Virus record (IMG/VR): IMGVR_UViG_3300036399_000312
Location: 1 to 29,293 of that record
Strand: one strand, 5' to 3'
DNA length: 29,293 nt
DNA from: a virus
The stretch's first letter is position 1; each line of letters opens with the position of its first letter. Shown here piece by piece: positions 1 through 22,079 of this stretch. Both the position numbers and the translations under genes were made by a program. Under the pieces are notes generated by a model. The model worked only from the letters and a program-made list of their open reading frames with translations, was not told the origin of the DNA and searched no databases.

Positions 1-148
1 AAGTTATATCAGTGAAACTGATACAATTTGCTGTAGAAGATCCACAACATTGACTCATTGTTTTGCCTAATTTATTAAGCTGTGCTTGAAGTTGCCATAA
101 TAAGTTTGACTGTTGGTCCCAACCTATCTGTCTTGATGGAATACCCAT
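1..148 (-). CDS. Small conserved phage protein, 3' part cut by window edge
   Basis: An open frame starts at the ATG at 148-146 and runs to the window edge, giving 49 residues with no stop. It begins MGIPSRQIGWDQQSNLLWQL and continues through a short amphipathic helix to a Cys-containing stretch (QCCGSS). From memory, the RQIGW...NLLW N-terminus recurs in small proteins near the tail or lysis genes of Bacteroidota phages; no function is known to me. The start lies 2 bases after the stop of the GIY-YIG gene, so it is probably read from the same transcript. The nine N-terminal residues are mirrored by the upstream endonuclease gene. The real length cannot be seen. Confidence 0.75.
   Translation of the reverse strand, partial: MGIPSRQIGWDQQSNLLWQLQAQLNKLGKTMSQCCGSSTANCISFTDIT
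122..148 (-). repeat. Diverged 27-bp direct repeat, copy 1 (start of the downstream gene)
   Basis: The first nine codons of the edge gene (MGIPSRQIG) match the first nine codons of the GIY-YIG gene at 733-759 in 20 of 27 bases. Four of the seven differences are silent third-base changes, and the other three fall in one codon (TCA, Ser, versus AAT, Asn). Confidence 0.8.
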
Positions 149-150
149 AT

Positions 151-759
151 TTATATGTATATTAAATTAGTATTGTTTTTAATTTTGCCTTGTAAAATTT
201 TACACAAGGTATTATAATTTAAGTTAAAAATCAAAGCAGCTTCTTTTATTCCAAAGTAAAATGTTCCTGTTTCTTTATGTAAAATAATTTTCATACTATT
301 TTTCATATTCTTCATTTTCATTCTTGTAGATAGAGAATGTTTTATTCCTTTATGAGAATCGCTTATCTTCTTTTTACTCTCTATAGAATGATTCCATTTT
401 CCTCTAGTTTGTAACATTTTATCAATAGATTCTTTAGGTAATTTTCCACCTCGACCACCTTCTTTTATGTTTAAAAGATTGCATCCAAGATCCTTATAAA
501 AATTAATATAGTAAATTTCTAATTCATCCAAATCAAATTGTGTAACATTATCAGACTGACATTCTTTAATTATTTCAAATTTATGGTTTTGCCACGTATG
601 TTTCTTAAATGAATTAAATAAAACTCTTTGTTTATAAACACTTTGTAAACTTCTATATTTAGAAAATCTTTTTTTAATGTCCCAACTTTGACCAATGTAG
701 ACTTTACCACTAGGGCTAGTAATTTTATAAATTCCTATTTGTCTATTTGGTATTCCCAT
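151..759 (-). CDS. GIY-YIG homing endonuclease with NUMOD-type DNA-binding tail
   Basis: A 202-residue site-specific endonuclease, likely a free-standing mobile gene of the I-TevI/Seg type. The GIY motif is at residues 9-11 and YIG at 21-23. Arg31 follows in the first helix, and the helix with Glu81 (LDELEIYYI) supplies the expected metal-binding Glu. GCNLLNIKEGG at 92-102 closes the catalytic domain. Residues about 121-141 (HSIESKKKISDSHKG) look like a NUMOD3 motif. The C-terminal 165-192 resembles a NUMOD1 helix-turn-helix (KEAALIFNLNYNTLCKIL). The first seven residues precede the usual start of the fold and copy the N-terminus of the next gene. Two sampled lines of the gene (241-300 and 301-360) have 12 and 15 G+C per 60 bases, against 19 in a sampled line of a giant gene (5041-5100), which fits foreign origin. 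It lies 30 bases after the preceding stop. Confidence 0.92.
   Translation of the reverse strand: MGIPNRQIGIYKITSPSGKVYIGQSWDIKKRFSKYRSLQSVYKQRVLFNSFKKHTWQNHKFEIIKECQSDNVTQFDLDELEIYYINFYKDLGCNLLNIKEGGRGGKLPKESIDKMLQTRGKWNHSIESKKKISDSHKGIKHSLSTRMKMKNMKNSMKIILHKETGTFYFGIKEAALIFNLNYNTLCKILQGKIKNNTNLIYI
733..759 (-). repeat. Diverged 27-bp direct repeat, copy 2 (start of the endonuclease gene)
   Basis: Encodes MGIPNRQIG and matches the repeat at 122-148 in 20 of 27 bases. The match ends exactly where the GIY motif of the endonuclease takes over, since the Gly of RQIG is also the Gly of GIY. Confidence 0.8.
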
Positions 760-781
760 TTCTTTATAATTTATTAGTTAT

Positions 782-789
782 CAAAGATA
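782..789 (-). promoter_or_regulatory. Possible -7 element before the endonuclease gene
   Basis: The minus strand reads TATCTTTG, matching the Bacteroidota -7 consensus TAnnTTTG, 22 bases before the endonuclease ATG and directly after the preceding stop. No TTG is seen at the right distance upstream, and such 8-mers arise by chance in AT-rich DNA, so this is weak. A private promoter would suit a mobile gene. Confidence 0.22.
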
Positions 790-936
790 TTAATTTATAT
801 CTAATGTTATTGTTATGAAACCAAGAAAGAGAACATATGATGTATAATCAAATTTCTCATCAGGGTGTAGGACTTCCCATCCTATTGCTAGTCTATCGTG
901 TGGCCAATGAAATGATATTTCTAATTGCCAATCCAT
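790..936 (-). CDS. Tiny conserved phage protein (48 aa)
   Basis: A 48-residue frame beginning MDWQLEISFHWPHDRLAIGW and ending with a hydrophobic stretch, VLFLGFITITLDIN. Its ATG overlaps the stop of the 44-aa gene by one base (TAATG), a sign of translational coupling and a good reason to call both real. Trp, His and Pro are frequent, and the last 15 residues could form a beta strand or a short membrane-associated segment. From memory, proteins with a HDRLAxGWE core and this size are common beside the other tiny gene in Bacteroidota phages, but their role is unknown. It lies directly upstream of the inserted endonuclease. Confidence 0.78.
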   Translation of the reverse strand: MDWQLEISFHWPHDRLAIGWEVLHPDEKFDYTSYVLFLGFITITLDIN

Positions 937-9059: not shown

Positions 9060-12000
9060 TTAAAAAGGATTGCATGTATCATTGTTGTCTTCTTCTTCCC
9101 AAGATTCTTCTTGTTCTTCAATTACTGGTTGAGCTACTGGCTGATTACCAAACACTGATGCAATTTCTTCATCACTCACTTCACCTGATGCAATCTGATT
9201 ACCTTGAGCATCTGTTATTCTTTCTACTTTCTCAAAATCATTGTCTAGCACTGATGGTCGAATATCATCATAGAACTCTTGAGCTCTGAATGAATCTCCC
9301 CAAGCATTGATTGCTTTGTATATGTATTTCATATACACAACAGGTTTTCCTTGTTTGTCAGTTTTTTCATCAATTTGCATTAAAGGAATTGGATTATTCT
9401 TATCATCTTTTGTGTACACTTTTTGCAATAACACTTTCTTGATATGAGAACGATCTCCTGCTTTTGCTCTTTTGAGTTGTTCTGCGTATGGAATATCATC
9501 AGTCCAACTGTATGAAACAAATTCACTCCTTCCTTCAGATGAGAATGCGCTGATTGCTACAAGCTTTGGAAGTTTTCCCTCTCTCACTGCATTCTTCAAG
9601 TTTTCATTCAAGTATGAAGTATTAGGATCATAGAATGTTGCAAACCCTGAATAGAAATCTTCACCCATTTTCATCTTAGCTTTCATGAATGGTATGATGT
9701 CTGAGTTGTTCCAATTGTTTCTTTCAAACACATGTAATTTTTGGAAGTCAGCTAAGTTAGGCATATTTTCTAAATTGGACAATGTATTATTGTACACTGC
9801 TTTGAAATCTTCGTATGGAAGTAAGTTGGTGAAAGCAATAGGAGAGTTAGTAAGTCCTGACTGCAATACAGCAAGTCTTACAAGTTTTCCATAAAGATCT
9901 TTACCTTCACTACCTAAATACTTTTTAAGTTCACTGAATCCATATATGATGAGGTTTTGATCATACACTTTGTTATCTCTTCCTGCAATGTAAAGGTTAT
10001 TAACTTTACCCTCTCTAGCACCAGCCTCCATCTTAATGGAATTAAGAATGATGTTATTGTACAATGGGTGTAAAGGATTTCCTGTCATACCTTTTGATTC
10101 ATTTCCTAATATGGAATCTCTGAGGTTTATGATTTGTTGAGCAGTATTTTCTCTTGTGTCACTTCCTAATAATATATTGGCAACATTGATGTTAACTGTA
10201 TCATTAGTTTGCATAGCCCAGTCAAAAAGATCATTAACAGCTTTCTGAGACACTTTAACAAAGTCTCTGTCACTTAATCCTACATAAGGAGTGAGGACAT
10301 CTTCCATCACTTTTCTTACATTAGGTTTATCAGAAATAAGAATCTCTGCAAATGCATCTCTGAAATCATAAATAAGATCTTTCAAAGGACCAATAAATGA
10401 TTTGTCTAACAACTTATCTACAGAAGAGATGATTGTTTTACGAGCTTTTTCCAATTGCAATCTTTTCTTAAACACTAAGTATGGATCATTGATTGTGGCT
10501 GTATCAAAGTTAGAACCTTGTGTTACATCAAACAATTGAGAAGACATCTTAGCATACTTGATAAACTCTTTCAATATATATTGTTGTTGAGCTTTTTGGA
10601 AATCATCCATTTTATCCTTTGCTCCTACTTGATTAAATTTAATTGTTTTAAATAAATCTTCTTCAGCAGGAATTCCTGTAATTTCTATTTCTTTACTAGG
10701 AGAATATTCATCTAGTTTCTCTTGTATAATAGAATCAATGAATAACCAAGAGTACCCTTTGTTCTCAACAGAACGTAAGTAATCTTTAATGATTGGTTGA
10801 TTCATGAAGTATCCTACAGTTTTAATAGGCACACCCACTTTGGCTAAGAACAACCATGTAGAAGCTACGTTAGGAGTGGCTCCAAGCTCCATGATCCATG
10901 CACCTTTAGAGATATCCACATATCCATCAATAAACATCCCTATGATATCTGATATAGTTTCTCCAGCTTTATTCTTAATCATAGATAGATTTGGTTTCAA
11001 TCTACCATCTATTAATATAGTGTTGTATTCTTTGAAGTTAATGTTAGGGTTTGTAGAATAAGTGGTTGATTTTGGATCACCACCTAAAATTTCTCTATCC
11101 ACTCCATCCACTTGACTTAATCTATCTATATCAACATACATTGCTGAACGTTGATTTTGAGCATGGTTAGTTTGACCTACAGCAGCAATACCAATTGCAT
11201 ACTTACCAGATACAAATGATTGACGTAACGTGGACATGAACTTTCTATTCAACATGTTACCAACAGATGAATAGTCAACTTCAGGTATTCCAAGTTCTTT
11301 ATTGATTTCTTTTGTAAGGTCTTTTAATTCTTTTGCAGAGTTAGGTTTAATAAGACTGTCAAAGTTTGAAGGATGCTCAACAAGATCTTGTAAAGATTGA
11401 ATGTATTCGTTCTCTAATACTTTCTTGTATATACCATCTATGAAGTCTTGTTTATTTAACTCTTTCTTATTGATCTTTTCTTGTCGATCCATAAGACGTT
11501 GTTCAGCATCAACATCTAATTCATCTTCTTTAGATAGTTTAGCAAGTTGTCTTAGTACATATTGTTGTTCGCTATCTATTAACTTGTCAAATAAGTTAGA
11601 GTAGTATTCAATAGTTTGTTCTTTAGTTCCTTTTCTTTCGATCAATCTTATTTCTCCATTCTCATCAGTGATAACATTTTTCAAATAGATTGAAAGTTTA
11701 TCAATATCAAAGTCAGATCCCACTTTCTTAACAAGAGCAGATGGAACTACAACAGAATCTTTAAAATCAGCAGGAAGGAATCCTTTGATAATGAAACTAT
11801 CAATAGAGTTTTGTTTCTGTGTAGGAATACGATAACCTAGTCCTGATAATATCTTTTGACCTTCATCTGTATTATTCAAATAGTTAAGAAGTTCTTTGTC
11901 AGACATAGAGCTTTCAAACCATCTAGGGAGCATGATTTCACACACGTTGATTTTCTTACCATCTTTAGATTTAGAATAAAACTTAAGAGAGTCTGATTGG

Positions 12001-15000
12001 TATGCTAATGTTTCTGTACCATCTTCTTTAACGATTCGTTTGGCTTCTTTTCTAGTTCCTTCAAATAATGTAGAAGGAATTTGAACTTTCAATCCACCTG
12101 ATATCTTAGGACGTACAACATTCTTGTCAGCAATAGAATAAAGAATGTTTCTGATTTGTTGATATGCAGGAGTGGCTTCAAGAACTACACTACCTTTTTC
12201 AAATCCTGCAAGAGCAGCAGTGATGTTATCATTTACTTCTCTTTTTAGAATCTCATCTTTTAATACATTTATTAATTTCTTTGGATCTGCTAAAACAAAA
12301 CCTTTGTTATTTTTAGAGATACCAAGTTTTTTAAGAAGTGATTTAAACCCTTCCTCAGTTTTTTCTTGTAATAAGTTTTGATTGTTTTTAATCATTCTGT
12401 ATACCTCAGACTGTGCCATTCTCTCATTCTCATCAGTGATTGCTTCCCATTTAACAAAACGATCATTGAAGTCTTTATTCTGAGAATCAAAATCAATTGG
12501 CACACCAGCTTCTAAGAAGTCCATGGTTACAAGTTTTGTAATCTGAGAACCCTGTGTTACTGATGGAGTGTCTTTAGAAGGAACTTCAGATTGTACTCCC
12601 ATTATACTGAATGGTATATTGTTTACTTCTGCAAATGGTGTAGTATTGAAACTACCATTAGTATTGTATAAAGGTGTAGTGATACCAGCTCCAACTTTTC
12701 TACCTGACTTGTAAACAGCATAATCTACTTTATCTGATGCCATTTTCTCATAGAACTTCATTGCATTTGAATTAGGATTCATCTCATGAAGAATTCTAAA
12801 TGAAAGAGGAACCAATGCAAACTTGTCTAATACGATATCATTATAGTTTTTGCCATCAGCTTTACTTCCAGATACAATAGGTTTAATAGGAGTGTATACA
12901 CTAGCTACACCAGGATTCTTTCCTACAATTCTAACATTGCCTTCTTTGTCTGTAATTTCTTTAAGTTCAAATTTCTTTTCTTCAGGACTTAAATCAATTC
13001 CTTTAACAAATTTTTCATAAGCAATATCATATCTGTATTGTGCTTCTTTAGAACTATTCCATTCTCCTGAACGAAGAGCAAATATGCGATAGGCTTTCAA
13101 TGAAATATAACCACCACCATCTGTTTCTTCATATGGTTCATCATATCCTGGAAGATCATTTGTTGAGAATACGTCAGAGATGACTGTAGATCTGAAATAA
13201 TCTTTCATCATGTCTGTATATCCTATATCTTTTGAATTATAACCTTTGTTATACTTATCATTGAATGAAACATTTATTCTTGTAGATCCATACACAAGTG
13301 CTTGTCTAGGTGAGTTGAAGTTTTTGATACGTTTCAACTCATCAGAATATTGATAAGGATCTGAGTAGATAAGTTTGTGCATCTCAATATTAGCAATCAT
13401 GTAATTTACAGAAAGTATCTTGAGTTTTTTATTAAGAATATCTTGTGTCAATCCTCTTTGATTAAGTGACAATCCTTTAGCAGTTAATCCTTCTTCTTTA
13501 GTTGAAGTGATTACACCAAAGTTTTTCAATAATCCTTCTGTATCTTTTGCTTGTGTTTCAACAAATTGTTTTACAGCAGCATTGATATCATTTTTATTGG
13601 CATTATAAATTTCTAGTGGTGTCTTCTTAAGATTTCCTTTTATGATTTTATCATGCAAACTGTTTCCTAAGATAGCTTTGAAGAAACGTAAATCTTGTGA
13701 ATTTTTATTTCCAACAACTTTTCTTCCATCTCTTGATAATAAAACCTCAGAGATAAAGTAGTTCTTGAATATATCTAAATAGTCTCCACTTGAGAAAGAT
13801 GCCTCAGTTACAAAAGGTGTTTGTGAATTATGCATCTTGATAGCATGTTCAATAGAAGCATCTCCAGGAACTAAGTTCAAATAGATTCCATCAAGATTCA
13901 AGTTGATCTCTTGTACAAGTCTTTGTTTAAATGTAAGTTTTGATGATTCTTTTTTCTTACCTGTTTCTTGGTCAACTGTACCATCAATGAATACAGGTTT
14001 CATAAACTGTTCTGTATTCTTTTTACGTCCACCATCTCCATCTGGATCAAGATCAAACATTCTTTGTAGCATCACACTACTATCTTTTGTAAAGACATCT
14101 GTCAATAAATGTTTGAATGACGAATATCCTCTTTCAACATCATTTAAATCATTGATGTTTTCTAGTTTGGAAAGAACATCGTATAACGTACTAATTGCAC
14201 TAACCCCTACATATGATTGTGTACGTTCACCATTCAGGTTAAAGTAAGTTGTCTCAAATGAAGTGTTCTCAAGAACAGCTTTAACTAATCCTAATTCAAA
14301 CAAACGTCCATCAATGTCTAACGTTTTTGAAGTGATAGAAGAAATATCTTTTACAGCAATTAAACTGTCACGAAGTCCTTCAACAGCTTCTGTAAACATT
14401 TTACGTTTGTCTGGTGTTAATTTAGTTTTACTTTCTAAATCTGCAACTTTAAAATTGATTCCTAAATTATTTAAGAATGTAACATAGCTAGACATATCAG
14501 AAGGATTAAGTCTTCTGTTAGTTAGCATTGATGTAGGATTATATTTTAATGTTTGTCTGTTGTAAGAAATGTATGGAGATTTGTCACCTCTAATTCTTTC
14601 AGAGATACCACCCATCATCTCACGAGCAGCTTGTTTAGCTGCTGATGTAAGAGTTGAATCACTAACTACAATCTCTCCTGAAGGAAGAACAAACACTGTT
14701 ACAACATCTGCATTTTGTTTCTTAACAGCTTTCCAGAAAGCACTCATTAACTGTAAGTTATAATCTTCAAGATTATTAAAGTTAATAGCTTCTCCTAAAG
14801 GACTGTTTGTAATACGTGTATATAATTTTGCATAGTTAGAGTTTCCTTTTGCAAGAACTCTAAGTCTTTCAAACATGTCATCAATGTTCACAGAGCTATG
14901 TAGTTTATCTACAAGGGTAGCATAAACTTCATCTGCAGGCATTAATATCATACCTCCTACAGAAGAACGTTGTGGAATAGGATTAGCGTAATTGTTATTG

Positions 15001-18000
15001 TATTCCATTTTAGGAAGTGTAGCCAATAAAAGTTTAATTACACTATTTGCTTTTCTGAAAGAATCAATCTTTCTAGCATCCATATAATCTGCTTTACCAG
15101 AATTGTTCTCATCAGTTACATTTACATCATCATTCTCATCAAACTCGATAGAGAAAGTTTTCAAATGCTCTTGATGTTTTTCAATTATCTGATTCCATTC
15201 TGATTTAATATCTTCAAATAATGTTGCAAGATTGTTTATATCACGAGTGGCTGTTGCAACATCTAATTCACCTTTGTTGATAGATTGAACAAGTAGGTCT
15301 CTCTTGAACTTAATAAGATTCAATACTTCTTTTCTAAGTCTTGTATATAACTCTTGTTTGTTTTCTTTCTGTACGTTAAATATATTTCCTTTATTTTCAA
15401 CAATATTGGAAAGTGTACTGTATGTCATGTGTTGAATAATATCATGTGCTTGAGCACTTGGTATTTTCTCCAATCTAAATTCTGATGTTTCATCAGCAGC
15501 AACGTCATCAATATCAATCACTCCTACTTTAGCATAAGCAAGTTTACTTTCGTAAGGATTGTATTTTGCAAAGTACCCATCACCTATCTTATTAAATAAC
15601 TCTTGTGTATTCTTCTGAGCATTCTTTCCTGTAAAGAAAGATTTAATAAACTCAATCAGTTCAGAGAATAGTCTACCAATTAAACCTTTAGATGCGACAG
15701 GTTTTCCTAACTTATCTTGAAGAACAGCATCTCTAAATTGTTCAGCAAGTTCTTCTTTGATTTGTTGGTTTGTTGCATTTTTATATTCAATAAGTTCTCC
15801 TGTGAATCTATCTTGATAACTTCCTTCTCTGTTTCTAAACTCATCAATAATCAATTGTTTCTCAGCAGGACCAGCAAACATTTTCCATACAGCTTCAAAC
15901 ACCTCGTGATAAGCAGTACCCACCTCAGCATTTTCATATACATAAACAGCACCATTGTGAAGCATACCCCAAGCTTGTCTTCCATTAGTAGCTTGAATCA
16001 TGTTCTTCACTCTATAGAATGGAACATTAGGAAGCATTTTTGCATAATCTTTTTCTAGACTAGTCCAGTCTTCTTGTTGAAACTCTTCAGCTTCTTGTAC
16101 AAGTTTTAAACGAAACGTTTCATCTGTTCTTCCTGTAGATGGTGTATTAAAGTCTTCTGAGTCATCTTCAATTTCTTCAATTTCTTCAGCTTCTTGAACT
16201 TCTTCTGTATCAGAAGTCTGAACTGTAGGAGTTTCAGTAGGAGCACTATCTTGTATAGCAGGTTGAACAGGAACAAGCTTTTGTGTTATCTGTGGAGTTA
16301 TATCTTTAAAGATAGTTTGTATAACAATACCCACTGCCTTTGGAAACAATACAGCATCTGTTGTTTCTGATGCTGGAAGTTCTCTATCAATTGCAGAATT
16401 CAACAAGTCTCCTTTGATACTGAAAATAGCATCTTCGTTACTTGGATCTGTTATATCTATTAATTTTTCTGCCTTAAGAGATTGTATAACATTAGCAGGT
16501 AATATTACATTATCTTTAATTAATTCCAAATGATTAGGAATAGTTTTTAAGAAATCAACAATACCTTCTAAGTTTGCTTTAAACTTAACAGGTCCTGCAC
16601 CTCGTCCAAATACTTTAATATTTTCAGCTTGGCCATTTAAATTATAAGTGGTTGGTGAAGGTTGTACAGTTGGTTGTACAGGAGCAGGAGTAGAAACTGG
16701 TTGTGCTGGTTGTGCTGCTTGCGCAGGTTGAGCTTGTTGAACTGGAGCTACTTTCTGTACAGGTTGTTGTACAGGTTGTTCCATTACAACAGGAGCACTA
16801 GGTTTTACATAATCATCAACTGTAGAGTCAAGTGTAAAATAAATACCAGTTCTGTTTACAGGATTAGATTCTGTAACAGGTTTATATTGTGTAGCCAAAG
16901 GAAGATCTTTACCTTCTCTAGTGATAGTTAGTTCTCCATTTTCGTTTGGAGCTTTATCAGACAATAAATATGTTTGATAGTTTGGCCATCTTTGATATAT
17001 AGGATTTCCTTGTTTATCAATTCCTGTTATTTCGAAATAAGGATTATTAAAATTGTCTCCTTTGAGTTTTGAGTTATTTGTGTTATTGTACAATTGTTTC
17101 AACAAACCAACAATTTCTGCTCTTGTACTTGGGCTCCCTAGTTCAGAAGGAGTGAAGTTGAACATTTGTTTAGAATCTTTTGTCAATCCTGTAATAAATA
17201 ATTTTGTTACAGGTTTACCATCTTCAGTTACTGTCTCAAACCAAACATTGTTATATCCAAATGGTTTTGGTTTTCCATCAGGATAATGAGCAAATCCCCA
17301 ATAAATTGTTGATTTTAACCATTCAAACAATTCATTAGATCTTTCTTTTAATTCACCATCCTCAAGAGCATTTTTAGAAACTTGAAGAATTACATCATAT
17401 ATTGTATTTGCTTCTTTATCGTTAAACTTTCTATTGAATAGTTTAGCCATACCAACTCCTGGTACTTTTAAAAACACTCTACCTTTTGGTGTATTGAAAG
17501 CTACAGATCCTTCTTTGATAGTATCATTTGTTACTGCTACTTGAATTACTGGTTCCTTTCTTAGTGTTGAATTTGTAACTAGTCCTGCAGCTTGTGCTGA
17601 AGTTCTTGCTCCTTTGTCAACTGTTTCATTTCCTGCTACATCTCTAACAGTGACAAGTTTTGGTGAACCAAACGAAGGAGTGAATGCTTGAGGCTCTCCT
17701 AACACTGCTTGTGATAGTTGCCCTGTTCTCCATTGTTTGTATTGTTGTGTAAATGATGTTACAATATTTTCAGGAGTACCTTCTCTAAACATTGATTGTT
17801 TCTTACCATCATATTCTCCTGTAAGAGTTTCAGCTGGAAACACTTGATAGATGGCATTATCAATCTTATTAGCACCTTCAGCTAAAGGTTGACCATCTTG
17901 ACCTACAACACTATGTGCACCATTACCATTATCTTGAACCATCACCATATAGATGATTTCATTTCTGGCTGTATCTTTTCTAGTGCCTTCAGCAATATCT

Positions 18001-21000
18001 TTCAAGAAACTTTCTGTAAGTCCAGGGATAATTTGATCTTCTGTCTTAGCTGTAACAATCATCGCTTTCAATCGATTCTTGTTAGTGAATGTTTGGAATT
18101 TATTACCAAAGTAATTAGCTCTAGCTTGATGAGGAATATTGTCATCAGCAGCAGGTCTTGAACCTCCCACTACATCATATTCATTTTTCTTACTTACTGG
18201 TTCGTATTGTTTTGTTCCAAAGAAGTTTTGCACATCAGTTGTCAGTGTTGCAAACAACTGTTGTGTTAGTTTTGGATTATTCTTTAAGAAATCTTCTTGG
18301 ATTTTTTGTTGTTTGTACTTCTCAGCAACTTGTTCAAATTTGTCAAGAATTAAACCTTTGGCTGTTATCTCATTGTTTAAATCTTTGAGCTGACCAACCA
18401 TTATGTCAATGTGCTCTTTCAAATCCTCAATACGTTTCTCATTAGGAGTGATGTCTCCATCCTCCATAACTGAAACAATATCTTCTAAGTTCTGTAACTC
18501 TTCTCTATAGTTAGGTTTTATCTTTAAGAAGTTTGGATTTTCTTTTAAGAAGTCTACCCAGTCTTGTCCCATAAGTCTAGGAACATTTGGATATCTATTT
18601 TCAAAGTCTTGAATCAATCCTGAAAGCAAACTGATTGCAGAATCAATTGCTCTTTGTACCTCATCTATTAATTTTGAGATGAAGCTAATTTGTTTAGCTG
18701 TCTTCTCTTGTAACATTTCAAGATCAAGAAGTTCATTCTCTAATTCATTTTTGAACTCATAGAAGTTTGTAGAATACTCATCAATATTACTTGCAACATC
18801 TGCAACATACTCCATGTTGTATTCTATCTCTTGAAGATCACTTTGAAGTTTTTCAACTTCTTCTTCAAGTTGAGTTTGCATTCTAGATAACTTCATAGCG
18901 TTATCCAATGCTTTCTTAGTTACTTTTTTGAAACGAATTGCTTTCTTAGAACGATTATCTACTTGAGCATTCTGTTCAATTTCTTTTTGAAGTTCAGCAA
19001 GTTCTTCAGATATAGCTTCAAATGATTTTTGTTTTTGCTCAATTAAACTCTTTGTGCTATCCTGTCTTTTAGAAAGATCATCAAATAACTCATTAAGAAT
19101 TCTAAGACGCTCTTGTCTTTTTTCTGTTACACGTGGATCAGTTTTAGCATCTTCATTGAATTCTTGTTCAGCCTGTATTTGTTCAGCAGTTAGTTCACCA
19201 ACAGCTTTTATTAATGGATGTTTGTAACCTTTCTTTTTTGCTAATGCATCATCAACTTGATCTCCTGTGAATTCTTCTCTTTTAACTTTACCATCTCTTG
19301 TATATACAAGTGTTAGAGTTCTGTCTTTATCGTTATATTCTAAACGACCTTTTGCAGGTGATCCATCTTTATTTTTTCTACCATAATGTTCAAACACTGT
19401 ATTCCAATGTTTCATATAGTAGTTAAGCTTCTTATTAGATTGTGCTTTGTCAACCTCTACAAGGTTGTAGTCTTCAAATTCTTCTTTAGAGATATCTCTA
19501 ATTCGTCCATTGGAAGTTCTAATTTTAATAGTACCATCTTCGTTCTCTCCAAGAACTGTTAGCATTGGAGCACGATAAACTTCTTTACCTTTTGCATCAT
19601 ACTCAACAATTCTTCCTAAGAAGTATTCTTTGTTAAGTTTAATATTTCGTATACCTGCTTTTGTAGTGATGTTTACACTAGGAACATTTTCTTGTCCTTC
19701 TATATCTTCAACAGAAGTGCCATCAGGATTAACACCTCTACCTTCAGGAAGAGCTAATAATTCTTGTGGTTCATCATCTGGAGTGTTTTCTATAAGTTCA
19801 TCTTTGTAGTTCTCAGGTTTAGCAAGAATGTCATTGTACTCATTAATGAATGCTTTTCTTCTTACAGCTATCTCTGCTAAGTCATTAAGATCTTGTATCA
19901 AGTCTTGCTTAGTGTCATTATCTACATCCATGTTAGCAATTGTAGAAAGAGCAGCTTTATAACTGTCTACATCAACTGAATCATCCTCAAGAACATCTTT
20001 GATTATGTCTTGTGTAATAATGTTATTTTCTAATAAGAATCCATTTATTCCAGGAATACGTGAATCATAATCTTTGATCTTAGATGCAGCATAAACTAAT
20101 CTATCAATAACATCATCAGAATAAACTCTTTGTCCATCTACAATCTTATCTCCATATTTATCATTTAGCTTAGAATATAAATTATCTACATTCTTAGCTA
20201 CTGATTGTAAGTTATCAATTCGTTGTATGAAGTCTTCTCTAGTTTCATTCTCATTAACTATTCCACCTGTTACCAATTGTCTAAATCCATCAGCATCCAT
20301 TGCTTGATTTTTGTAATAATCAAGTTCTTCATTCACTGATTCAATTTTTCCATATTTAGCTCTTGGCATAACATAAGAAAGAGCAAAGTCTTTCTCATAA
20401 TCTTTCTCAGAAAGTAAGTCGTTATTTGCAATTGCTTGTTGTCTAAGTTTTTGTGAGCCAATACCAATACCCATAAATTTGAGTTGGTCCTTCAATGCTT
20501 TATCAACATTAGTTTTATTTAATGCTGTTAAAGCTGCCTCTGTGTTTGCTTGTCTTTCTCCACCAAGACCAAACAATCCTTGCTCTGCAATCAGTCCAGA
20601 TTTACCAACCCCAATTCTAGTTTTACCTTTTTCATCTTTATATGTTCCAACAAAACCAGCTTGTTGAATACCTCCTGATAAACCACCAATAAGAATGCTT
20701 TCAAGTCCTTCTTTTGATGTTAGGGTTTCAGGGATACCTTCTGTAAAAATATTACCCCAAGACTCACTTATATCTGTAAGAATTTTTTTAGAACCATTTC
20801 TATTTTTATATGCTCTTTCAAAGTAATTAGTTACACCTGTTTGAATAGCACTTTGCATACCCTCTTCAAATGCTTCTGAAGGTGCAAATAAAACTGTGGC
20901 CTTACCAGTAGCTAATGATTTCATTGTACTACCAACACCTTTTGTAATTCTACCAAAAGCTGTTTTTGGAACATTCTGAACAAACCCACCACCAAGAGTT

Positions 21001-22079
21001 TCTTGTTCAATCTTATTAATCAAAGCTTTATCAGCCTTTCTAGAAGATCCTAATATTTTTGGTAACTGAATATAGTTAGTTGCAGTTAATAATAATGAGT
21101 TAGCTCCCCAAGTATGCATACCTACCTTATCAGCCATCTCATTTATTTGTTCAAGACTTTCTCCTGTAGGGTCTAGACCATATACACTTTTATATTCTTC
21201 AATAGCTTTATTTCTAAAAGTGTTCATTGACTGAAGACCTTCCATAGAAGCTTCTCCAAATGTTCCCATTGCAGAAGTTAGAATTCTATCTGAGTTTTTA
21301 AGTACACTTGATACTGGAGATTTTACATATTGTTGTGCAAGAGAGTTTAATGTATTCTCAAATGCTGCATACTTTCCTAATTTAGGAGCAACAGACATTG
21401 CTTCTTCAATAGCTGTAGCAGCTTGTAATCCTTTACCTGCTTGAACAAGTTTACTTGTTAAACCTATTCCACGCAACACACTTCCCCAAGCAACTCCACC
21501 TGCAAGAGCACCTACAGAATATCCTAAGTTCTTTAAAACTTTATCAGACCAAAAGTTTACAGTTAAAATGTTATCAGGAGAATACCATGAGGCATCTTGT
21601 TCTTGATGTGTGTAATAGTTAGGAAGTTCATCTTCAAGATTTTTCATGATGTCATCCATCCCTCTTGTGACATCATTATCAATTAGTCCTGCCCATCTTT
21701 GATCTCTTACAGCAGTACCAATACCAGCTACTAATCCTACAGTACCAGAAACAAAAGATGTTCCTGCTACTCCTGCAAACTTAGCTGTAGCATTTCCTAA
21801 CTTAGATAGTCCAGACTGTTGTTGTGCAGCCATCTCTTCATAGTCAGTACCAGGAAGAGTTTCTTTATATCTGTTGCCTTTATAAATAGAAGATAGAGGA
21901 ATCTGTGCCACTCCTAATTCTTTAGGGGCTGCTAATCCTGCTCTCCATATATCATCAAAAGATCTATTGTTATTTGGCTCTCCTCCAAAAGCAGAGTTTG
22001 GAGTTGGCACATCAGGAGTTGTTGGTAGACCTTGTGCTACACCACGCAGGTTGACTATTTTTGGCTTGTTATCTGGCAT
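9060..22079 (-). CDS. crAss-like virion RNA polymerase polyprotein
   Basis: 4339 residues, 13 kb in a single frame. The RNA polymerase core is at about 3150-3680. GSDFDIDKLSIYL holds the catalytic DFDID triad, Asp3456, Asp3458 and Asp3460. It follows GYRIPTQ and KGFLPADF, landmarks of the crAss-like single-chain polymerase family (phi14:2 gp66, related to eukaryotic RNA-interference polymerases). TQGSQITKL with Lys3182 lies 274 residues earlier, a candidate for the lysine of the first double-psi barrel. SGKYAIGIAAVGQTNHAQ lies at about 3620-3640. Known role of the family: packaged, injected and transcribing early phage genes. N-terminal 101-124 and 183-208 are Gly-rich hydrophobic, suited to membrane passage. 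Coiled coils lie at about 980-1150, a Pro/Gln/Ala linker at 1766-1810 and an acidic stretch near 1960-1975. A peptidase-like segment has HEVFE (2058-2062) and EELAEQF (from 2109). The C-terminus is acidic. The start overlaps the 921-aa gene by 11 bases. Confidence 0.95.
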   Translation of the reverse strand: MPDNKPKIVNLRGVAQGLPTTPDVPTPNSAFGGEPNNNRSFDDIWRAGLAAPKELGVAQIPLSSIYKGNRYKETLPGTDYEEMAAQQQSGLSKLGNATAKFAGVAGTSFVSGTVGLVAGIGTAVRDQRWAGLIDNDVTRGMDDIMKNLEDELPNYYTHQEQDASWYSPDNILTVNFWSDKVLKNLGYSVGALAGGVAWGSVLRGIGLTSKLVQAGKGLQAATAIEEAMSVAPKLGKYAAFENTLNSLAQQYVKSPVSSVLKNSDRILTSAMGTFGEASMEGLQSMNTFRNKAIEEYKSVYGLDPTGESLEQINEMADKVGMHTWGANSLLLTATNYIQLPKILGSSRKADKALINKIEQETLGGGFVQNVPKTAFGRITKGVGSTMKSLATGKATVLFAPSEAFEEGMQSAIQTGVTNYFERAYKNRNGSKKILTDISESWGNIFTEGIPETLTSKEGLESILIGGLSGGIQQAGFVGTYKDEKGKTRIGVGKSGLIAEQGLFGLGGERQANTEAALTALNKTNVDKALKDQLKFMGIGIGSQKLRQQAIANNDLLSEKDYEKDFALSYVMPRAKYGKIESVNEELDYYKNQAMDADGFRQLVTGGIVNENETREDFIQRIDNLQSVAKNVDNLYSKLNDKYGDKIVDGQRVYSDDVIDRLVYAASKIKDYDSRIPGINGFLLENNIITQDIIKDVLEDDSVDVDSYKAALSTIANMDVDNDTKQDLIQDLNDLAEIAVRRKAFINEYNDILAKPENYKDELIENTPDDEPQELLALPEGRGVNPDGTSVEDIEGQENVPSVNITTKAGIRNIKLNKEYFLGRIVEYDAKGKEVYRAPMLTVLGENEDGTIKIRTSNGRIRDISKEEFEDYNLVEVDKAQSNKKLNYYMKHWNTVFEHYGRKNKDGSPAKGRLEYNDKDRTLTLVYTRDGKVKREEFTGDQVDDALAKKKGYKHPLIKAVGELTAEQIQAEQEFNEDAKTDPRVTEKRQERLRILNELFDDLSKRQDSTKSLIEQKQKSFEAISEELAELQKEIEQNAQVDNRSKKAIRFKKVTKKALDNAMKLSRMQTQLEEEVEKLQSDLQEIEYNMEYVADVASNIDEYSTNFYEFKNELENELLDLEMLQEKTAKQISFISKLIDEVQRAIDSAISLLSGLIQDFENRYPNVPRLMGQDWVDFLKENPNFLKIKPNYREELQNLEDIVSVMEDGDITPNEKRIEDLKEHIDIMVGQLKDLNNEITAKGLILDKFEQVAEKYKQQKIQEDFLKNNPKLTQQLFATLTTDVQNFFGTKQYEPVSKKNEYDVVGGSRPAADDNIPHQARANYFGNKFQTFTNKNRLKAMIVTAKTEDQIIPGLTESFLKDIAEGTRKDTARNEIIYMVMVQDNGNGAHSVVGQDGQPLAEGANKIDNAIYQVFPAETLTGEYDGKKQSMFREGTPENIVTSFTQQYKQWRTGQLSQAVLGEPQAFTPSFGSPKLVTVRDVAGNETVDKGARTSAQAAGLVTNSTLRKEPVIQVAVTNDTIKEGSVAFNTPKGRVFLKVPGVGMAKLFNRKFNDKEANTIYDVILQVSKNALEDGELKERSNELFEWLKSTIYWGFAHYPDGKPKPFGYNNVWFETVTEDGKPVTKLFITGLTKDSKQMFNFTPSELGSPSTRAEIVGLLKQLYNNTNNSKLKGDNFNNPYFEITGIDKQGNPIYQRWPNYQTYLLSDKAPNENGELTITREGKDLPLATQYKPVTESNPVNRTGIYFTLDSTVDDYVKPSAPVVMEQPVQQPVQKVAPVQQAQPAQAAQPAQPVSTPAPVQPTVQPSPTTYNLNGQAENIKVFGRGAGPVKFKANLEGIVDFLKTIPNHLELIKDNVILPANVIQSLKAEKLIDITDPSNEDAIFSIKGDLLNSAIDRELPASETTDAVLFPKAVGIVIQTIFKDITPQITQKLVPVQPAIQDSAPTETPTVQTSDTEEVQEAEEIEEIEDDSEDFNTPSTGRTDETFRLKLVQEAEEFQQEDWTSLEKDYAKMLPNVPFYRVKNMIQATNGRQAWGMLHNGAVYVYENAEVGTAYHEVFEAVWKMFAGPAEKQLIIDEFRNREGSYQDRFTGELIEYKNATNQQIKEELAEQFRDAVLQDKLGKPVASKGLIGRLFSELIEFIKSFFTGKNAQKNTQELFNKIGDGYFAKYNPYESKLAYAKVGVIDIDDVAADETSEFRLEKIPSAQAHDIIQHMTYSTLSNIVENKGNIFNVQKENKQELYTRLRKEVLNLIKFKRDLLVQSINKGELDVATATRDINNLATLFEDIKSEWNQIIEKHQEHLKTFSIEFDENDDVNVTDENNSGKADYMDARKIDSFRKANSVIKLLLATLPKMEYNNNYANPIPQRSSVGGMILMPADEVYATLVDKLHSSVNIDDMFERLRVLAKGNSNYAKLYTRITNSPLGEAINFNNLEDYNLQLMSAFWKAVKKQNADVVTVFVLPSGEIVVSDSTLTSAAKQAAREMMGGISERIRGDKSPYISYNRQTLKYNPTSMLTNRRLNPSDMSSYVTFLNNLGINFKVADLESKTKLTPDKRKMFTEAVEGLRDSLIAVKDISSITSKTLDIDGRLFELGLVKAVLENTSFETTYFNLNGERTQSYVGVSAISTLYDVLSKLENINDLNDVERGYSSFKHLLTDVFTKDSSVMLQRMFDLDPDGDGGRKKNTEQFMKPVFIDGTVDQETGKKKESSKLTFKQRLVQEINLNLDGIYLNLVPGDASIEHAIKMHNSQTPFVTEASFSSGDYLDIFKNYFISEVLLSRDGRKVVGNKNSQDLRFFKAILGNSLHDKIIKGNLKKTPLEIYNANKNDINAAVKQFVETQAKDTEGLLKNFGVITSTKEEGLTAKGLSLNQRGLTQDILNKKLKILSVNYMIANIEMHKLIYSDPYQYSDELKRIKNFNSPRQALVYGSTRINVSFNDKYNKGYNSKDIGYTDMMKDYFRSTVISDVFSTNDLPGYDEPYEETDGGGYISLKAYRIFALRSGEWNSSKEAQYRYDIAYEKFVKGIDLSPEEKKFELKEITDKEGNVRIVGKNPGVASVYTPIKPIVSGSKADGKNYNDIVLDKFALVPLSFRILHEMNPNSNAMKFYEKMASDKVDYAVYKSGRKVGAGITTPLYNTNGSFNTTPFAEVNNIPFSIMGVQSEVPSKDTPSVTQGSQITKLVTMDFLEAGVPIDFDSQNKDFNDRFVKWEAITDENERMAQSEVYRMIKNNQNLLQEKTEEGFKSLLKKLGISKNNKGFVLADPKKLINVLKDEILKREVNDNITAALAGFEKGSVVLEATPAYQQIRNILYSIADKNVVRPKISGGLKVQIPSTLFEGTRKEAKRIVKEDGTETLAYQSDSLKFYSKSKDGKKINVCEIMLPRWFESSMSDKELLNYLNNTDEGQKILSGLGYRIPTQKQNSIDSFIIKGFLPADFKDSVVVPSALVKKVGSDFDIDKLSIYLKNVITDENGEIRLIERKGTKEQTIEYYSNLFDKLIDSEQQYVLRQLAKLSKEDELDVDAEQRLMDRQEKINKKELNKQDFIDGIYKKVLENEYIQSLQDLVEHPSNFDSLIKPNSAKELKDLTKEINKELGIPEVDYSSVGNMLNRKFMSTLRQSFVSGKYAIGIAAVGQTNHAQNQRSAMYVDIDRLSQVDGVDREILGGDPKSTTYSTNPNINFKEYNTILIDGRLKPNLSMIKNKAGETISDIIGMFIDGYVDISKGAWIMELGATPNVASTWLFLAKVGVPIKTVGYFMNQPIIKDYLRSVENKGYSWLFIDSIIQEKLDEYSPSKEIEITGIPAEEDLFKTIKFNQVGAKDKMDDFQKAQQQYILKEFIKYAKMSSQLFDVTQGSNFDTATINDPYLVFKKRLQLEKARKTIISSVDKLLDKSFIGPLKDLIYDFRDAFAEILISDKPNVRKVMEDVLTPYVGLSDRDFVKVSQKAVNDLFDWAMQTNDTVNINVANILLGSDTRENTAQQIINLRDSILGNESKGMTGNPLHPLYNNIILNSIKMEAGAREGKVNNLYIAGRDNKVYDQNLIIYGFSELKKYLGSEGKDLYGKLVRLAVLQSGLTNSPIAFTNLLPYEDFKAVYNNTLSNLENMPNLADFQKLHVFERNNWNNSDIIPFMKAKMKMGEDFYSGFATFYDPNTSYLNENLKNAVREGKLPKLVAISAFSSEGRSEFVSYSWTDDIPYAEQLKRAKAGDRSHIKKVLLQKVYTKDDKNNPIPLMQIDEKTDKQGKPVVYMKYIYKAINAWGDSFRAQEFYDDIRPSVLDNDFEKVERITDAQGNQIASGEVSDEEIASVFGNQPVAQPVIEEQEESWEEEDNNDTCNPF
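16650..16784 (-). repeat. Low-complexity repeat encoding a Pro/Gln/Ala linker
   Basis: Imperfect short units around ggttgtacagg and ggttgtgctggttgtgctgc encode about 45 residues (1766-1810) made almost wholly of P, Q, A, V and T, such as QPVQQPV and QPAQAAQPAQPV. It separates the upstream beta and coiled-coil half from the peptidase-like and polymerase half and is likely a flexible hinge. Confidence 0.8.

Follow-up and report, generated by a model that had tools for sequence, protein, structure and literature searches.

The window analysed here is a whole viral fragment of 29,293 bases, which begins with two reverse-strand genes, a homing endonuclease ORF placed directly ahead of a large tail-type gene (Table 1). 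The ORF matches Pfam PF01541 above the cut-off for the GIY-YIG class (28.8 bits vs. 22.6) and PHROG 314, homing endonuclease (E = 3e-30). GIY, YIG, R31, E81 and N97 are invariant in an alignment of four endonuclease members; no homologue with a solved structure was found by sequence. The gap between the endonuclease stop codon and the next gene start is 2 nt, and the tail gene is probably translated by re-initiation. No Rfam intron was found in the window or in L003, L119, L013 and L353, and the insert comprises the ORF and a rebuilt gene start only; the endonuclease is free-standing, and an enzyme encoded within a group I intron was rejected. Elsewhere in the window, the reverse strand at 2487-3179 matches a four-helix-bundle sensory domain (4HB_MCP_1, E = 3e-11), which is unusual in a phage lysis region, and a single ORF of 4339 aa occupies 9060-22079 (-).

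Table 1. Features at the insertion site, in window coordinates; occupied and empty refer to alleles with and without the endonuclease.
Feature	Position	Strand	Remarks
GIY-YIG homing endonuclease ORF, 202 aa	151..759	-	begins MGIPNRQIGIYKI (longer start MGIPNRQIGIYKITSPSGK); GIY-YIG catalytic domain, weak NUMOD3 match
Native upstream flank with translation signals that the endonuclease now uses	760..833	-	found before the intact gene in L002, and its last ~50 bases also in that position in L007 and L008
Captured native start, ATGGGAATACCAAATAGACAAATAGG	734..759	-	endonuclease codons 1-8 and two bases of codon 9
Net insertion relative to the empty allele, 611 bp	123..733	-	placed after ATAGG, base 26, inside codon 9
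Start of the target gene	148	-	begins MGIPSRQIGWDQQ (longer MGIPSRQIGWDQQSNLLW); gene runs off the window at base 1
Rebuilt tail-gene start, ATGGGTATTCCATCAAGACAGATAGG	123..148	-	in all occupied contigs, in no empty one
Target gene, large tail-type protein with MxIPxRQIGW N-terminal tag	1..148	-	cut off where the window ends; the protein has 1284 aa in L003/L004

The duplicated gene start

The endonuclease ORF and the tail gene behind it begin almost alike. An earlier note on this DNA had counted seven differences over 27 bases; the count stands, but base 27 marks the insertion junction, which leaves a true repeat of 26 bases with six differences, namely three silent third-base changes and a replaced codon 5 (AAT to TCA). 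The duplication itself is real. In a control with 200 rounds of re-pairing among 89 distinct GIY family ORFs and their downstream genes, the window's start score of 11 was expected about 0.01-0.02 times per survey, and the next best real score among the 89 was 5; a chance repeat was rejected on this basis. Most family members in this survey start M-(I)GIYKI, without a long captured start. The survey is blind to cases with codon gains or losses (L119 and TPR, below) and thus underestimates the frequency of such duplications. The arrangement recurs in four further IMG/VR contigs, with 0-4 mismatches over 6-10 kb, and is therefore no artefact of assembly; comparable structures in sequenced isolates also led us to reject that explanation.

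The duplicated sequence encodes an N-terminal tag, M[AGKSP]IP[SN]RQIGW (140 instances), which is common to many tail-type genes, often 2-3 per phage, and which perhaps serves in docking to the virion; a literature search on the RQIGW tag gave no result. A second tag-bearing endonuclease, 61% identical to that of the window, is encoded on another phage contig (L119, 114-kb). Its N-terminus reads MGIPNRQIGIY, and behind it lies a different tag gene, MIPSRQIGWSQEANLLW, such that the tag is again duplicated, and in both phages the same tag position is Asn (AAT) in the endonuclease copy and Ser (TCA) in the rebuilt copy. Natural genes in L084 and L095 have starts identical to that of the L119 endonuclease. 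A search for close relatives of L119 with an empty site gave none, so that capture at this locus is read from the duplication itself.

Empty relatives and the direction of insertion

Both alleles of the window's site are represented, with five occupied records and three empty loci (L002, L007 and L008). The empty locus of L007 reads ...ataaattataaagaa ATGGGAATACCAAATAGACAAATAGG TTGGGACC, and L002 and L008 have the same flank with small variants. The captured start is identical to the intact tail-gene start of L007 (26/26) and matches that of L002 at 23/26 positions, codon 5 alone differing. Because the empty relatives carry both the flank and the start before an intact gene, those preceding the endonuclease are the ancestral ones of the tail gene. 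This comparison, which the earlier note had proposed, upholds its view that the element took over the original start and that the downstream start is a rebuilt one. The empty starts resemble both copies, and every real match to MGIPxRQ followed by GIY has such a neighbour. The breakpoint, which the note had put at codon 9-10, is located by the same alignment inside codon 9: ATAGG is joined directly to TTGGGACC in L002, L007 and L008, and the ATG-to-ATG distance in the occupied L003 is 611. Contigs from three metagenomes (L226, L228 and L229) all end at ATGGGAATACCA, the fork between occupied and empty alleles, which we take as a sign of mixed populations.

Relative to the empty L002, the rebuilt start has three silent changes in codons 2-9 (GGA>GGT, ATA>ATT, CAA>CAG), while the following 35 codons have none (Fisher p = 0.018, a modest value); relative to L007, one further codon is changed (AAT to TCA; p = 0.088). 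In the first 150 flanking bases, 2 differences from L002 are seen on one side and 1 on the other. With three silent changes, the recoding signal of the window itself is small. A donor of its rebuilt start was not found, the nearest natural start being 3/30 away, and donor hints are limited to crAss001 TPR and L020.

Start-type and end-type cases in other phages

The cultured gut phage crAss001 has two start-type cases, gp37/gp38 (TPR) and gp18/TerL. At the gp37/gp38 site the empty PhiCrAssBcn1 reads ...tatgaact ATGCTACATTTTAATGAATTAAGAATAACACAAGATAAC, and in crAss001 and PhiCrAssBcn17 the Bcn1 flank and ATGCTA(AAGAGA)TTTAATG (ATGATAAAGGGATTTAGTG in Bcn17) now begin the endonuclease (gp37), with the TPR gene restarting as ATGCACTTTAATGAGCTTAGGATTAGTCAGGATAAC. 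Of the first TPR codons 8/10 are changed, compared with 6/206 beyond (p = 1.2e-9). The altered tract does not stop at the insertion point but continues to codon 11, and it lies closer to a phage from a different genus (5/30) than to its empty sister (9/30). In the gp18/TerL case, the flank and ATGAATAAA are captured and TerL restarts as ATGAACAAG (ATGAACAAGTAT), with few changes. The annotated starts of crAss001 gp18 and TerL (gp19) look misplaced (L013:3007 and L013:3602; record about 8716 and 9311): the true gp18 start lies upstream (MNKCGIYMITSPSG), and TerL begins at MNKYQTEL, not at the ATG inside gp18.

The arrangement also occurs at gene ends. Comparison of L020 with L110 shows that the native end of the upstream gene (...AAAACTAAATATCTATTAACCTTGTCTTAA) is now the C-terminus of a GIY ORF, while the upstream gene itself has received a variant, mostly silent end (11/16 codons changed vs. 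12/94, p = 7.6e-6). L101 and L205, compared with L094 and L099, respectively, display end-type capture as in L020. Insertions at gene boundaries without capture also exist (L219/L220 and frurule/cr126), and capture is thus recurrent and not universal; the frurule GIY gene, which lies between genes, was rejected as a capture case, since no capture was seen. Pattern matches in L137, L351 and L352 were rejected as spurious, and a usable empty relative of Flavobacterium phage FL-1 was not found.

Altered gene ends co-segregate with endonucleases

The starts and ends of 102 orthologues of crAss001 and PhiCrAssBcn1 were ranked blindly by excess codon change. Among the starts, TPR (behind gp37) ranked top, TerL (behind gp18) fourth and dUTPase, which follows an HNH endonuclease that Bcn1 alone possesses, fifth; among the ends, gp40, in front of gp41, ranked top. 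PhiCrAssBcn20 was then added as a third genome for a segregation test. Where occupancy differed, terminal changes numbered 8/10 (TPR), 2/10 (TerL), 7/11 (gp40 end) and 6/10 (dUTPase); there were none at gp40 and dUTPase when both genomes were occupied, and 2 (TPR) and 0 (TerL) when both were empty. Altered termini therefore co-segregate with endonucleases at all four of the variable sites tested (4/4), as predicted. The starts of gp82 and DUF1360 (L359 crAss001, record 87795-88208 and 98418-98849) are strongly altered with no endonuclease adjoining, an observation that counts against the explanation below; they are possible scars of lost elements. In PhiCrAssBcn1 (L361, record 93636-94418), the HNH-type endonuclease is accompanied by a small ORF (MKIETKYSM) before dUTPase, which may itself have captured the dUTPase start (MKI).

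A probable homing endonuclease with a spare gene end

The locus is best explained, with a probability that we put at roughly 0.7, as a free-standing homing endonuclease accompanied by a variant end of the disrupted gene, probably one that the enzyme cannot cleave, much like a natural ‘home-and-rescue’ drive. The GIY-YIG gene inserts a few codons into a conserved phage gene, whose native start and translation signals become those of the endonuclease ORF; the element would bring its own variant of the first codons, by which the target is restored right after the endonuclease stop. The enzyme most probably cleaves alleles that lack the element, at the captured site, and spreads through double-strand-break repair, while the imported or re-spelled start, with its mostly silent changes, would keep the carrier from being cut. 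In the gene-end version, the native last codons become the endonuclease C-terminus and the target receives a variant end. Of this scheme, the genome comparisons demonstrate the captured native start, the rebuilt variant start, the recurrence of the design and the co-segregation of altered termini with the endonuclease, and cutting, resistance and homing are inferred. With the target gene intact again, a spare of unchanged sequence would give the carrier a new cutting site, so a variant spelling would be required for self-protection. The reading of the earlier note, in which the start is captured and the target start rebuilt, is supported, with protection from self-cleavage staying putative.

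The TPR start is nearer to DAC17 and the L020 end shares a variant with L076, which suggests that spare ends come from diverged relatives and that only uncleavable ones could persist; in both of these parallel cases, import from a diverged relative seems a better description of the rebuilt end than recoding in place. The same similarities (TPR with DAC17; a K-V-R-YLLTLS variant in the L020 rebuilt end and L076), along with the foreign ends of fungal hybrids, are what might be expected if the variant end were no more than the allele of the donor phage, brought along by co-conversion and devoid of a protective role. We consider this less likely as a full account: co-conversion alone leaves unexplained why the altered tract reaches no further than about 10-16 codons from the junction and gives way to near-identity. 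This reading is also compatible with a home-and-rescue element, as only an uncleavable donor allele could be carried.

A plain insertion with a drifted target-site duplication, in which the silent changes are meaningless, would account for the 26-bp near-repeat that flanks the insert and for the small number of changes in the window. It is made improbable by the concentration of changes in the rebuilt tract, with adjacent codons unchanged, by the TPR tract, whose alteration passes the insertion point and points to another genus, and by the tracking of altered termini with the endonuclease across genomes. There is similarly little likelihood that divergence between the copies is maintained because it guards the element against deletion through direct-repeat recombination. 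Identical 26-bp flanking repeats would favour such loss, and the copies have indeed diverged, but 26 bp is short for recombination and alteration of the TPR tract is not confined to the repeated part. That the MGIPNRQ leader is a functional tag addressing the endonuclease to the virion, as in the tag-bearing tail proteins, is very improbable, for although the tag begins so many tail-type genes and MGIPNRQIG is retained in both endonucleases that bear the tag, the conserved W and the NLLW part are missing from the endonuclease, and the leaders of other capture cases are unrelated (MNK, MLKRFN).

Extending the home-and-rescue reading to the homing endonucleases of crAss-like and related phages as a group, we lean slightly towards regarding them as natural drives that target conserved gene ends, carry a cleavage-resistant variant end and fuse the displaced native end to themselves (at the N-terminus in start-type and the C-terminus in end-type cases), such that the captured sequence would record the target site.

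Relationship to known systems

The closest parallels are the mORFs of fungal mitochondria (Allomyces atp6; Glomus atp6/atp9/cox2/nad3), which imported foreign C-terminal gene parts (PMC3630166). As in the phages, an endonuclease ORF lies near the end of a conserved gene, and an inserted terminal part, foreign in the mORFs and putatively so in the phages, restores the gene and displaces the native end. The mORFs are confined to the C-terminal side and to mitochondria (PMC3630166); here the elements are in phages, the start is swapped, and the native start that is displaced has become an in-frame part of the endonuclease, whose translation start it provides. The end-type cases (L020, L101 and L205) are the closer match, and the start-type cases are the mirror image of mORFs. 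The earlier note knew of no description of such capture; this has to be amended for gene ends, which are described in fungal mitochondria (PMC3630166), and holds for phages and for starts, for which no description was found in a literature search whose coverage was incomplete, so that absence is not proof.

Mitochondrial ‘N-terminal duplication’ elements of Tremella fuciformis are likewise mobile elements that carry a gene fragment exchange, but they are mostly predicted introns or cDNA insertions with an analogue of the following exon, and have no captured start before a free-standing ORF (PMC7315562). Seg and Mob of the T-even phages are, like the gene described here, intronless homing genes between phage genes, and their start often overlaps a neighbour; in the parts of the review consulted, cleavage and insertion sites of these free-standing enzymes are described as separate, and captured starts or a variant rescue end are not mentioned (PMC2988022). 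The consulted parts of a study of Skunavirus HNH enzymes treat free-standing endonucleases without such end swapping (PMC12724721). The engineered HomeR drive also combines a homing nuclease with a re-coded target end, placed at the gene end to limit recoding, and differs in being synthetic, CRISPR-based and built in flies, whereas the present elements are natural and in phages (PMC7968924).

The arrangement offers a testable answer to how a selfish gene may reside inside a conserved gene without an intron or intein: it would bring along a re-spelled spare end. Each enzyme's target site would be predictable from the ends of the enzyme itself, and such elements would account for sudden silent variation at gene termini and for misplaced gene starts in phage annotations. 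They would also be the natural counterpart of a gene-drive design conceived independently.
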